Part shown: positions 7,274 through 36,854 of the stretch, piece by piece | How the letters are laid out: the number at the start of each line of letters is the position of its first letter | Position numbering within the stretch: position 1 is the stretch's first letter | DNA from: a bacterium | Lineage (GTDB): Bacteria; JAGOBX01 | Length of the DNA: 40,160 bases | Reading direction: 5' to 3' | NCBI GenBank assembly: GCA_029551925.1 | Contig: JAKPEO010000001.1 | Coordinates: 1 to 40,160, forward strand | Notes under the pieces: generated by a model | Told to the model about the DNA's origin: nothing | The model's input: the letters and a program-made list of their open reading frames with translations, nothing else | The model's database searches: none | Program-made: the position numbers and the translations under genes

Positions 7274-7456
7274 TTACTTCGCATTTAACAACAAGTTCAA
7301 TTGCTCTTCGTATTTATTGCTACCGCCTTTTTCTTTTCTTTTTTTTTCTAAATTTTTTAAATCTTTTTCAGCATGCTTCATAAATGATGACAGCATAAAA
7401 AACATTATCGCTAATATCATTACAATTGCGGCAAAAGAAGTAGGAAATTTCTTCAT
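7274..7456 (-). CDS. 60-residue single-pass membrane protein
   Basis: A small protein with one hydrophobic helix (about residues 8-25) after MKKFPTS, then a strongly charged cytoplasmic-type tail of alternating lysine and glutamate (KHAEKDLKNLEKKRKEKGG). No family recognised. It starts directly after the stop codon of the voltage-sensor gene (ATG 7454-7456 next to TAA 7457-7459), and a GGAG site lies inside the end of that gene, so the two are translationally linked. The tight spacing suggests a partner or accessory subunit of the voltage-sensor protein, but this is inference. It reads as a real gene because of the site, the spacing and the sensible topology. Confidence 0.65.
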   Translation of the reverse strand: MKKFPTSFAAIVMILAIMFFMLSSFMKHAEKDLKNLEKKRKEKGGSNKYEEQLNLLLNAK

Positions 7457-8539
7457 TTATTCTCCTTGCTCCTTTTTGCGCAACTCTTCGTAAGCATTAT
7501 AATATTCCCACAATTTCGTGTTATTATTTTCTAATGTATTATTAATTTTTTCTTGCAATTGATAAATATCCGAACCCTGTAATTTTTCGTCAAGTTCAAT
7601 TAATTTCAATTCCTGTTCTAAATTAGTTTCTAACACTTCATTAATTTTATGTATCGGAGCAATATAATATTTCAAAATTATCAAGTGTAAAGTAATTAGT
7701 AAAATTGCAATTAGCGGCAGCGCTGAAATTAATACCAGCATTTCTACTATTCGCACATAAAATTTTAATTCTTTAATTAAAATTTTTATCACTATTTTAT
7801 CATTCAACGAAATTTCATAAATATCATCTGGAAAATATTTATGAGTAAGTTCTTCTTTTGTGATTGAAATATAATTTTCTATCGGCTTGTCTAATGTATC
7901 CAAACTTATTTTGTAATAAATAACTCTATCAAGCATTTTCAGTTTTTCTATAAACTGCTCGGCAGAAAATTTTCCTTCCTCTGTTTTTGAAGTAATCACT
8001 ATTGCCCTTAATATTTGTCTGTAATTGTCATCTACAAACGAATGCAATCTTTTATCGACAAAATTAGAAACAATTATCGAGACAACAATCATTATTAAAA
8101 TAACAATAATAGCAATAGAATTAAATAATTTTTCTTCTATAAAACATTGCGACGAATGTTTGATTGCTTTCAGCCCGCGGAAAACACGCAGCATCCGCAA
8201 AATTCGTAAAATCCTTATAAATCTCGTATATTTTATCCCGCGCACTGCACGCAAAGCTGGAGTAATAATATCCGAACACGCTAAAATATCTATTATAATT
8301 TCAGCGCTGAACAAATATTTCTTACGAAATATTATTATTCTTACAATAACATCAATTAAAAATATTACTGAAATTATAGTATTGTATAATAAAAATTTAT
8401 TTTGCTGTTCAGGCGTGATTTCAAAATAGGAATTAATTAATAACCCAATTGCAATAACAACTAAAAATAATACAAAATAATCCCAAATTTTAAATGCTAA
8501 ACTTTTTTTTATTTTTTCTGCGTCTATCATTTTCGTCAT
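7457..8539 (-). CDS. Voltage-sensor-domain protein with extracytoplasmic sensor insert and HAMP-like tail
   Basis: A 360-residue membrane protein. Helices S1 (about 21-36), S2 (51-71, with D63), S3 (80-92, with D84 and D90) and S4 (97-124) form an ion-transport-family voltage sensor. S4 carries basic residues at every third position: R97, R100, K103, R106, R109, R112, R115, R118, R121 and K124. An S5-like helix follows (138-160). Instead of a pore loop with a selectivity filter there are about 100 residues (161-263) of mixed alpha/beta sequence resembling a small Cache-type extracytoplasmic sensor. The last membrane helix (266-289) leads into IAPIHKINEVLE, a HAMP-like helix pair, and a coiled tail with no catalytic domain. 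So it looks like a voltage-sensing or potential-modulated receptor rather than a channel. It heads an operon with its own promoter; no clear ribosome-binding site precedes ATG 8539. Confidence 0.75.
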   Translation of the reverse strand: MTKMIDAEKIKKSLAFKIWDYFVLFLVVIAIGLLINSYFEITPEQQNKFLLYNTIISVIFLIDVIVRIIIFRKKYLFSAEIIIDILACSDIITPALRAVRGIKYTRFIRILRILRMLRVFRGLKAIKHSSQCFIEEKLFNSIAIIVILIMIVVSIIVSNFVDKRLHSFVDDNYRQILRAIVITSKTEEGKFSAEQFIEKLKMLDRVIYYKISLDTLDKPIENYISITKEELTHKYFPDDIYEISLNDKIVIKILIKELKFYVRIVEMLVLISALPLIAILLITLHLIILKYYIAPIHKINEVLETNLEQELKLIELDEKLQGSDIYQLQEKINNTLENNNTKLWEYYNAYEELRKKEQGE

Positions 8540-33185: not shown

Positions 33186-36100
33186 TCATTTTTTATATTG
33201 TAGAATTCTGATATTTTTCTTTGATAATAAAAACTCGATTTTGCCTGAAAGCGGAGTCGCTTGCGCGCTAATAGGCATTAAATTTAAAGTCAATGGATAA
33301 TTTACTCCGGGCAAAACCTTAATATAAAAAGTATCATAACTATTATCTTTTGATATTGCAAAAATATCAGGATTAATGATTATAATGCTGTCAGATAAAG
33401 TAGAAGTATCAATTGAATAATACAGCGGCGCAGTATCAAGCCATTTTTCTTGTCTGTAAAAATCATTTAATAATTCGATTCTAACTAATTGCGTTTGTGG
33501 AATAGCAGTGTCATTTACAGTCAACCACGCATCTTTTACTTTTAATTTTAAATCGGTAAATGTTATTATTCCGGCTTCTGTGTCTTGCGGGACGCCGTAT
33601 TCTGGAAGCGGTATAACCCTTACTTTTTCTGAAATATTGTCAAACACTGTAAAATACGCTTCGCCATTTATTATATTTTGAAAATGCGTTTGTGCGATGC
33701 TTGTCGCACTCGACGGCTGAACTATCGCAATTTTAAAACGCGTGGAATTATCAGCAGTAATTATATTATTATATTCATTAAGCACAGCGCAGCGGACATT
33801 AGCTGCAGCGCCAGCGCGCGCTGCAGCGTCAAATATTTTTATTTTAGCATATTGGACATTAGCGGTCGCGCTGCCTTTGATATTCGAACGCTGTTTATCA
33901 TACAAACTAATTGTATTTATTCCAGTATCTAATGAAATCAAATAATTTGAATATTGCAAAACGCCATTATCAATCTGCGGCGAAAATGTATAATTATTCG
34001 GCAGGTTAAATGGATATTTCAGCGATGTTTTATTAAATTCAATTTCGCGATTATAGTTATTTGTAACTTCTGAATCATAACTTATGGAGAAAATATTGAC
34101 ATTATACCACGGCTCTGTTAAATAAAAAAAACTTCTTCCTGATGGATATTGTATCAATACCTGAAACTTTTCAGGATAAAAAGTCAAAATATCTGAAACG
34201 CTTGATATTACAGTATCAGCACAATAATTATTATCAGAAACTTTAATTCTTATACTGCCTGACTCCTTGTATCTTTGACTAACATTTAAAGAGCCGTTTG
34301 TTATTACCGCGTTAGTTATTTTCAAGCCGTTAGTATCTACCGCATTAGTAATATCCGGATTAATAAAAATCGGTGAAAAAGTCAAGATGCTGTTATAATT
34401 CGGCATTGTTTCATTATTCAAAGATTTAGCGATAACATTAAAATCAAAATCAATACCTGCCGTATCTTTAATATTTGAAATAGTTATATCAAAATAAGCG
34501 GGCGTAAATTGCAAATTATGACTATAATTAGAATTTATACCTGCGCTGTCATCTACTACTCTAAACGCTATTGTGCCAGCGTCATCGTAATGAAATCCGA
34601 ATTGCGCGACTCCATTAATAAAATTACTAATAACAATATCGCCGCTTGTCTCTAAACCAGCGCGCTGGATTTCTTTATACTTGCTCGCTGGCATTAAATA
34701 CAATATTTCTGACTGCTTTAAAATCACGCTGCCGCTGTAATTTGTAACTATATTGCCACTATCATCGTATATAGTAATCGTTGCTGTGTAATCCCTACCT
34801 GCAATATAATAAGATTGAGTTTCTACATTCAATACTATATTTGCTATTTTATTCAAAAAATACAATGTGTCGGAATATCCGAAAACACTGCTGTCATTAA
34901 TTTGATATGCAAAAATTCGCATAGTATCTGAATAATTATACATTGCATTAAATATTCCAGAAGAGCCGTTATTTATAGAAACAGATAAAGGCGCAATAAC
35001 GCCCGCTCCTAAAACAACATTCAGCAGCGCAGTATTATTATATGTCGTATCAATGCCAAAACTATTCTTTGCTGTTATGCGCATTTGAAAATTTGTATTT
35101 TTTATATAAGGACTAAATGTTTCAATTTCATAATAAATATAATCGCTTACAACTAATGGCGCTGAATCTTCTTCTATTATATATCTGCCCTGCGGAGTAA
35201 TACTGTTAGCGGAAAATCTAATAGTGCCAATATTATTATATTTCAAATATAAAGTAAATACTCCGTTATCTAACGGACTAAATGTATAGCGCGCAACGCC
35301 AGGTATTGATGTGTCTAAACTTCCATTTCCATTTGCTAATGACCAAACTGCGTCGTTAACATTGCCATCAAGTGTAATATTAACAATTCCTGTATAATTA
35401 CTAACAACTGAATTAGTAGCAGTATCTATTATTGCAATATAAATCGGTTCATTAAAGTTTTTTAATGCGCCGCCGTCATTAGTAATTCTAATTGTATATT
35501 TTTCTGCATCTTTCGGCAAATAATTTATTGATACTGATTTTAATTTTGGCGTGATTGCAGTATCAGCGGTTAATAATATAGCCCGATATTGTATATATTT
35601 TTTATTGGAGTAATAATCATTCAAAAGCGGAGTATAGATGCCAGTAAAAAAAGTATTAATACCATTAGCGCCGCGCCATTGCTCTGTCTCTATCTCAACA
35701 GCAGAATTAGCAGTCCGTAACTGCAAATAGATATTTGTTTGCGATAATAATTCAGAATCAAAACTAACAGAAGTAAAATCAGCAGAATTAGCAACAAAAA
35801 ATTTCGATGAATATAATATTCCAGCTGTATAATAAATTACAGAATATGTCGGCGATACTTCGCTATAACCAGTATATTTGTAAATACGCGGCTGGGCGCC
35901 TAATACTGACATCCATAACACATTATTTTCAAAATCATAACAACCATTTTGCGAAAAATTACCATTCGCATACTGCCAACGTTTTACTATTTGATTCGTT
36001 TGCAAATCAATACGCACTGCTTCAGGATTATTCGCTCTTTCTAAAATATAAATATAATTATTATCAACATATATACCCGCTATATCTGCAAATGAATTTG

Positions 36101-36854
36101 CCATTGGTATTGTCTTAATTTGCGGCGTGTCAATATTCAATAAATCAAAAATTTTTATAGTAAAACCATTATTGCCGTTGTTATTTATTGAATGCGCGAC
36201 ATTATACAAATATCGCGGCGAGGCAGTAATAAATATTTCATCATCAGCGCCGCTAAAAGGCAAACCAGTAGTTTTTTTTACTAAACCAGAAGGTAAATTA
36301 TAATAATCCATCTGTTTAGTATTCAAATTTACTTTTTGTAAATTTGAACCATTAGTAGTATAACCATTTAAAAAATATCTTTGATTATTAACATCAACAA
36401 AAGTCATAGATTTTGAACGATTTGTCGGAGTATCAGAAAAATATCCATAATCCTCCCACAGCGTAGTGCCATTATAACCAGTGCCTATCATCTTTAATTT
36501 GTTGTCATTATTATCAGTAGAATACCAATTTTTGATATATAAATATTTTCCGTCTGTTGTAAGCATACCAGCAGAAATATTAGCGGATGCCACAGCGCCA
36601 CCGGGCGTAGGCGCTGGAAAAACTACTGTATCAATCCAATTTAAAATTGTTTGATTTTGAATATTCGTATAACAATAAGTATCATAAAAATATTTAGACG
36701 AATTATAAACACCGCCTATATCCCATATTTCTTGCCCTGCACCAGATTTCCAATTATTTTGATAAAATATCTCTGCATAAATTCGCTGCACTTTTACTTT
36801 TAACATTACAAAAATAATAAAAATAATTATAATAAAATATTTATTTAATTTCAT
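33186..36854 (-). CDS. Large secreted protein: beta-propeller-like head and Ig-like repeats
   Basis: A 1222-residue protein with a signal peptide (MKLNKYFIIIIFIIFVMLKV to about residue 27). Residues about 75-340 contain repeated short strands of the kind MLTTDGKYLYIKNW, GIYVDNNYIYILERA and VNLNTKQMDYYNLP, like a seven-bladed propeller. About 350-455 resembles a jelly-roll-like module ending YIQYRAILLTADTAITPKL. From 460 on there are about seven divergent Ig-like units, each opening with a strand such as YTATITIYDDSGNIVTNYSG. No catalytic motif, C-terminal membrane anchor or sorting signal is seen. A cell-surface or extracellular adhesion or scaffold role is plausible. It is divergent from the pilus operon and has no ribosome-binding site; the predicted promoter suggests a leaderless transcript. 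Function not recognised. Confidence 0.8.
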   Translation of the reverse strand: MKLNKYFIIIIFIIFVMLKVKVQRIYAEIFYQNNWKSGAGQEIWDIGGVYNSSKYFYDTYCYTNIQNQTILNWIDTVVFPAPTPGGAVASANISAGMLTTDGKYLYIKNWYSTDNNDNKLKMIGTGYNGTTLWEDYGYFSDTPTNRSKSMTFVDVNNQRYFLNGYTTNGSNLQKVNLNTKQMDYYNLPSGLVKKTTGLPFSGADDEIFITASPRYLYNVAHSINNNGNNGFTIKIFDLLNIDTPQIKTIPMANSFADIAGIYVDNNYIYILERANNPEAVRIDLQTNQIVKRWQYANGNFSQNGCYDFENNVLWMSVLGAQPRIYKYTGYSEVSPTYSVIYYTAGILYSSKFFVANSADFTSVSFDSELLSQTNIYLQLRTANSAVEIETEQWRGANGINTFFTGIYTPLLNDYYSNKKYIQYRAILLTADTAITPKLKSVSINYLPKDAEKYTIRITNDGGALKNFNEPIYIAIIDTATNSVVSNYTGIVNITLDGNVNDAVWSLANGNGSLDTSIPGVARYTFSPLDNGVFTLYLKYNNIGTIRFSANSITPQGRYIIEEDSAPLVVSDYIYYEIETFSPYIKNTNFQMRITAKNSFGIDTTYNNTALLNVVLGAGVIAPLSVSINNGSSGIFNAMYNYSDTMRIFAYQINDSSVFGYSDTLYFLNKIANIVLNVETQSYYIAGRDYTATITIYDDSGNIVTNYSGSVILKQSEILYLMPASKYKEIQRAGLETSGDIVISNFINGVAQFGFHYDDAGTIAFRVVDDSAGINSNYSHNLQFTPAYFDITISNIKDTAGIDFDFNVIAKSLNNETMPNYNSILTFSPIFINPDITNAVDTNGLKITNAVITNGSLNVSQRYKESGSIRIKVSDNNYCADTVISSVSDILTFYPEKFQVLIQYPSGRSFFYLTEPWYNVNIFSISYDSEVTNNYNREIEFNKTSLKYPFNLPNNYTFSPQIDNGVLQYSNYLISLDTGINTISLYDKQRSNIKGSATANVQYAKIKIFDAAARAGAAANVRCAVLNEYNNIITADNSTRFKIAIVQPSSATSIAQTHFQNIINGEAYFTVFDNISEKVRVIPLPEYGVPQDTEAGIITFTDLKLKVKDAWLTVNDTAIPQTQLVRIELLNDFYRQEKWLDTAPLYYSIDTSTLSDSIIIINPDIFAISKDNSYDTFYIKVLPGVNYPLTLNLMPISAQATPLSGKIEFLLSKKNIRILQYKK

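Follow-up and report, generated by a model that had tools for sequence, protein, structure and literature searches.

Pore-less voltage-sensor domain (VSD) proteins are known in eukaryotes, namely Hv1, VSP, TMEM266 and sNHE, and the Hv1 proton channel has an aspartate in the middle of S1. Bacteria change and exploit their membrane potential. A 2023 review states, based on database searches, that every prokaryotic VSD known so far is accompanied by a selective pore, and reports that a tryptophan in S4 is fully conserved in Hv1 (PMC10377628). A term search of a 2024 voltage-sensor review showed no bacterial receptor of the kind described below (PMC13095418), and in the open-access full-text literature on voltage sensors together with HAMP domains, chemoreceptors or kinases we found no receptor whose S4 sensor acts on a signalling pathway.

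The protein described here is encoded on the minus strand of the window, the whole stretch of 40,160 nucleotides that was analysed. Checking of the open reading frame placed the gene exactly at 7457-8539, with an ATG start and a product of 360 amino acids whose sole Pfam match is Ion_trans (E 4.3e-12, residues 17-175), covering S1-S4 and S5 without the pore. The six membrane segments were assigned by hydropathy and S4 by its charge pattern, giving the following features.

7457..8539, minus strand: gene of the 360-aa receptor-like protein with a voltage sensor and no pore (open reading frame; Ion_trans 17-175; orthologue 59% identical)
8432..8491, minus strand: S1, residues ~17-36 (hydropathy; alignment)
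8327..8392, minus strand: S2, residues 50-71, with the gating-charge transfer motif F60xxD63xxxR67 (hydropathy; orthologue comparison)
8258..8305, minus strand: S3, residues 79-94, with D84 and D90 (hydropathy; orthologue and paralogue comparison)
8159..8251, minus strand: S4, residues 97-127, 11 basic residues, one every third position (charge pattern; 80.6% identity between orthologues)
8063..8131, minus strand: S5 or first receptor helix, residues 137-159 (hydropathy; profile match to the spirochaete family)
7754..8062, minus strand: extracytoplasmic insert, residues 160-262, a small mixed alpha/beta-looking domain and the fastest-evolving part (sequence comparison)
7670..7753, minus strand: S6 or second receptor helix, residues 263-290 (hydropathy)
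7460..7669, minus strand: cytoplasmic tail, residues 291-360 (70 residues), HAMP-like by family, without an output domain
7274..7456, minus strand: gene for a 60-aa single-TM protein, starting directly past the receptor stop codon (TAAATG)

The first-pass annotation had described an S1-S4 domain with acidic residues D63, D84 and D90 in S2 and S3. All are present: the charge-transfer centre is made of the S2 motif and D84 of S3, plus D90, and by alignment the three aspartates are kept in the orthologue and in one paralogue. The every-third basic pattern that had been read from residue 97 to 124 of S4 was borne out and proved slightly longer, the unbroken i+3 series comprising residues 97, 100, 103, 106, 109, 112, 115, 118, 121, 124 and 127 (n=11). 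When the protein was shuffled 200,000 times, no i+3 basic run exceeded 8, a length reached 6 times, and the eleven-charge S4 is not due to chance. Between window-type orthologues, identity is 77-81% in S1-S3 and S4 and 47-49% in the insert and tail; the VSD is their best-conserved part.

At the place of the pore, the soluble-looking stretch of about 100 residues noted earlier corresponds to residues 160-262, which are 103 in number and polar, and in which a motif scan detected no T.G.G or GYG-like filter motif. Profile comparison (hhalign) of the post-S4 half with 19 channel pore domains gave 0.44%, and a pore motif was found in none of 54 members; neither a selectivity filter nor a pore helix was found. 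The relatives carry S1-S4, S5, insert, S6 and a HAMP-like segment in this order, and the insert is therefore no channel turret. The tail (291-360) contains no enzymatic or other output domain by Pfam, as had been noted. By the same means the MA, HisKA/HATPase and GGDEF outputs are absent from both the window protein and the spirochaete members described below, and no phosphatase domain follows S4 in the window protein. The Cache-type nature ascribed to the insert turned out to be weaker than stated: neither the insert nor the window tail matched Cache, PDC or HAMP in Pfam, NCBIfam and PDB sequence comparisons, and structure models of the window-type protein (AlphaFold/AF2, built from two sequences) reached a pLDDT of 47, which is unusable.

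The window protein stands outside the channel, Hv1, VSP, chemoreceptor and kinase families because one defining feature of each was looked for and is lacking. With the voltage-gated K+/Na+ channels (VGIC superfamily, PF00520) it shares the S1-S4 sensor, the charge-transfer centre, the S4 arginines and the order of its six TM helices, yet its S5-S6 region is a receptor-like module lacking pore helix and filter, and the pore profile is not matched. As in Ci-VSP, the VSD would drive something other than a pore, but VSPs are eukaryotic and carry a PTEN-like enzyme straight after S4, whereas the S4 of the window protein leads into a TM-sensor-TM-HAMP-like module that lacks an enzyme. Hv1 and TMEM266, the latter a sensor with no known output, likewise have a VSD and no pore domain; however, they have four TM helices and a coiled coil, whereas the window protein is bacterial and has two more TM helices, an extracytoplasmic domain, a HAMP-like tail and no S4 tryptophan. 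The layout of the C-terminal half is that of chemoreceptors and sensor kinases (TM1-sensor-TM2-HAMP), and in the spirochaete family the profile of the tail is HAMP-like, but four extra N-terminal helices carry a voltage sensor and MA, HisKA and GGDEF are missing. Judged by sequence, a TM-sensor-TM-HAMP module joined to a voltage sensor is new, as no known kind combines the two, an assessment that differs if VSPs are counted as the parent kind.

In a search with the whole protein, receptor-type relatives were confined to the two genomes that sample the phylum of the window, i.e. its own and a sister genome (G001), and the protein could be read as an oddity of one lineage. This reading was rejected as a scan of 386 widely sampled genomes for Ion_trans matches that stop before the pore, in which the matches listed reach about E 2e-7, then exposed members in spirochaetes and in one further genome (G236). 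Among the matches listed in the 386 genomes, nearly all Ion_trans proteins that have a voltage sensor are pore channels of the ordinary kind, and those that stop before the pore are four proteins of the window phylum, two fragments (one at a contig end and one shortened by a stop), one protein in G236 and one in G304. The last two, of 316 and 369 aa, respectively, possess S1-S4, S5, an insert of ~100 residues and S6, and the G304 tail looks like HAMP. The G304 genome appears to resemble Spirochaeta thermophila and its phylum Spirochaetota, and 77 of 296 genomes of that phylum, in 44 of 138 genera, have members of a related family that is laid out alike, G236 representing one other phylum. The search for homologues with the S5-insert-S6-HAMP order that the first-pass annotation had suggested thus found them across spirochaetes and in one other phylum; there were no relatives in viral contigs. 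A second, different pore-less bacterial VSD protein was seen in another genome (G218; L052:2155-3123), in which a VSD with a 12-charge S4 is fused directly to a Schlafen/AlbA_2 domain.

Comparison of profiles connects the window protein with the spirochaetes. The post-S4 half of the window family aligned with the spirochaete receptor half at hhalign 96% (E 2.9e-9, 179 aligned columns). As hhalign E-values are pairwise and not database-calibrated, controls were run: reversed profiles gave at most 12%, a mixed TM-sensor-TM-HAMP profile from the same two genomes 16%, and 24 such proteins taken singly at most 6%. The inserts alone aligned collinearly but weakly (26%), with the common pattern 'iT.e.f...Y..DDi..i'. 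The HAMP tail claimed for the window protein is detectable in the related family but not in the protein by itself: the spirochaete tail matched HAMP at 93% (E 3.3e-7), other stretches of those proteins giving at most 0.5%, whereas the window tail alone has no Pfam match and reached 11% by hhalign, its post-S4 half aligning through the tail of the spirochaete family. Pfam reported HAMP for 0 of 36 spirochaete members. Going by these profiles, the window protein has the same order as the spirochaete pore-less VSD receptor family and a post-S4 half homologous to it, and a common origin of the whole protein in the two families is likely. In a tree of the VSD only, the spirochaete members were joined at 99.9/100 and the window family took no resolved position near the channels; as the tree does not join the two families, the architecture may have arisen twice.

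The 60-aa gene downstream of the receptor went unmentioned in the first-pass annotation. In the sister genome the receptor orthologue (59% identity) overlaps the orthologue of the small gene (57 aa) by four bases. As further neighbours the window has tsaD and a gene of phosphomannose-isomerase type, and the sister genome has genes for a histidine kinase and a panD-like product; since the surroundings differ and the pair is kept, the receptor and the small TM gene are conserved as a unit. The profile of the small protein had no other good match in either genome. Besides the orthologue, these two genomes hold two receptor-type paralogues. One, in the window's own genome (C29), has 280 aa and no tail and is followed by an 83-aa single-TM gene; homology between that small TM protein and the one beside the window gene was rejected, as 1535 of 2000 segment-preserving shuffles scored as well. 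The deposited label of the sister genome, 'Candidatus Dependentiae', is doubtful and probably wrong, since all genomes in the set except the window's own are related to it only at domain level. Elsewhere in the window, an open reading frame of 1222 aa (33186-36854) has no Pfam match at E 1.

The spirochaete genes have a different neighbour. Directly upstream on the same strand, and usually abutting or overlapping, 34 of 51 loci, including those with a degenerate S4, carry a gene for a soluble protein of ~310 aa (L051:1678-2604 and relatives) that ends in a near-invariant C-terminus, DRGAE.PDKSWF...LDELY.IA, and has no Pfam or PDB relative. This protein was considered as a partner in the window's genome and rejected, there being no match at E 1, and its gene is likewise absent from G001 and G236, the genomes being 86-98% complete, which makes the absence good and not absolute evidence. 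As the spirochaete partner is missing from the window's genome, the two groups do not have a conserved output in common.

The first-pass annotation had proposed a receptor that reads membrane potential and signals to a partner, and this is the best-supported explanation; we think that the window protein is probably a receptor of membrane potential that acts in trans through a partner. The anatomy read from the sequence, the missing pore, the conserved gating machinery, the recurrence of the architecture and the coupling of genes are shown by the analysis; voltage-driven movement, its coupling to the tail, a ligand, a partner and an output are what we infer for it. Upon a change in membrane potential the S4 gating charges would pass the charge-transfer centre of S2 and S3, and the motion of S4 would be conveyed by the S4-S5 linker to shift the receptor module, that is S5, the extracytoplasmic domain, S6 and the HAMP-like tail. 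The extracytoplasmic domain may bind a ligand and modulate the module. As the protein has neither an enzyme nor a pore of its own, its state must pass to another protein, and the new state of the HAMP-like tail would be read by a partner from the same operon. The likeliest partner in the window lineage would be the translationally coupled 60-aa membrane protein and in spirochaetes the conserved soluble protein of ~310 aa whose gene adjoins upstream. With a K+ channel gene directly downstream in two lineages, control of K+ flux or membrane-potential homeostasis would be the likeliest purpose.

It is unlikely that the protein is instead a voltage-sensing accessory subunit that co-assembles with a separately encoded K+ channel pore protein and gates the pore directly, as in a split channel. 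Such a subunit is suggested by the second paralogue, which lies in the sister genome (696 aa), comprising a VSD, a longer insert, a TM segment and a cytoplasmic part that looks like HAMP and GAF by eye and has no Pfam match, which overlaps (ATGA) the gene of a two-TM K+ channel that has an RCK domain and the filter TCGYGD and no VSD of its own (L044:3-806 and 803-2893). It is also suggested by seven spirochaete loci in which a K+ channel gene (Ion_trans and cNMP_binding), of the domain type of the spirochaete SthK-type cNMP-gated K+ channels, lies immediately downstream, abutting or within 24 nt. However, these channels are separate proteins that are not homologous to the receptor half and already have their own VSD, no channel gene adjoins the window gene or its orthologue, and the HAMP-like tail and the conserved soluble partner point to cytoplasmic signalling. 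Furthermore, all seven loci belong to one bacterial family (f289), so that together with the RCK channel of the sister genome they amount to only two independent K+ channel associations. In the window's own genome (C83; L046:2635-4404), the gene of a two-TM RCK K+ channel precedes one that encodes a stand-alone 159-aa protein binding cyclic nucleotides, both on one strand.

Conservation within the spirochaete family bears on whether the VSD senses voltage at all. Alignment of 36 members showed no variation at D53, F56, E59, D85, R128, R131, R134 and R137 and hardly any at K122, K125 and K140; the pattern G...N..L..K of the tail is likewise invariant, and the insert varies. An S4 run of at least 7 is kept in 46 of 54 members. 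Six loci (L115-L118, L130, L131) have lost most S4 charges and keep insert and tail; four of them (L115, L116, L117 and L118), on chromosomes of ~0.9 Mb, retain the upstream partner as well and represent a natural loss of the voltage sensor, and the gene can thus persist without a full one. Conversely, a 301-312-aa version without insert, present in four genomes (G449, G472, G477 and G507), has an intact S4 and VSD, S5-S6 and the HAMP-like tail, and in one of these (L119:2635-3525, G449), with a full S4, a loop of ~10 residues joins S5 to S6. The insert-less and S4-degenerate members indicate that insert and voltage sensor can be lost separately, the VSD and HAMP-like tail being the commoner core. 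The six S4-degenerate loci would fit a ligand sensor resembling a chemoreceptor, its VSD serving only to anchor it in the membrane or to dimerise it without sensing voltage, yet we hold this to be quite improbable: the gating residues are invariant in the 36 members, the VSD is conserved best, and the insert-less protein with its full S4 is the opposite of what an anchor predicts. An unusual ion or proton channel, with S5-insert-S6 as a non-canonical pore or an Hv1-like proton-conducting VSD, fits the Pfam name Ion_trans and the six transmembrane helices but is very improbable in view of the 0.4% match to pore domains, the lack of a filter motif in the 54 members, the absence of tryptophan from S4 (97-127), an S1 whose sole acid, D20, lies at the helix start with no mid-S1 aspartate, and the natural deletion of the insert to a ~10-residue loop.

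A membrane-potential receptor is the reading that we favour for the window protein. We give about even chances to the broader proposal that these proteins constitute an undescribed receptor class, in which an S4 voltage sensor would drive a TM-sensor-TM-HAMP module, widespread in Spirochaetota, with a dedicated coupled partner and, in some lineages, K+ channels, by which bacteria would read and regulate their own membrane potential. The existence of a pore-less VSD family contradicts the statement that prokaryotic VSDs always come with a pore (PMC10377628). These proteins open bacterial voltage sensing to tests by ordinary gating-current and knockout methods, supply VSD chimaeras made by nature, and give a function to seek in the conserved two-gene unit of spirochaetes. 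Some bacteria may use this family to read the voltage across their own membrane.
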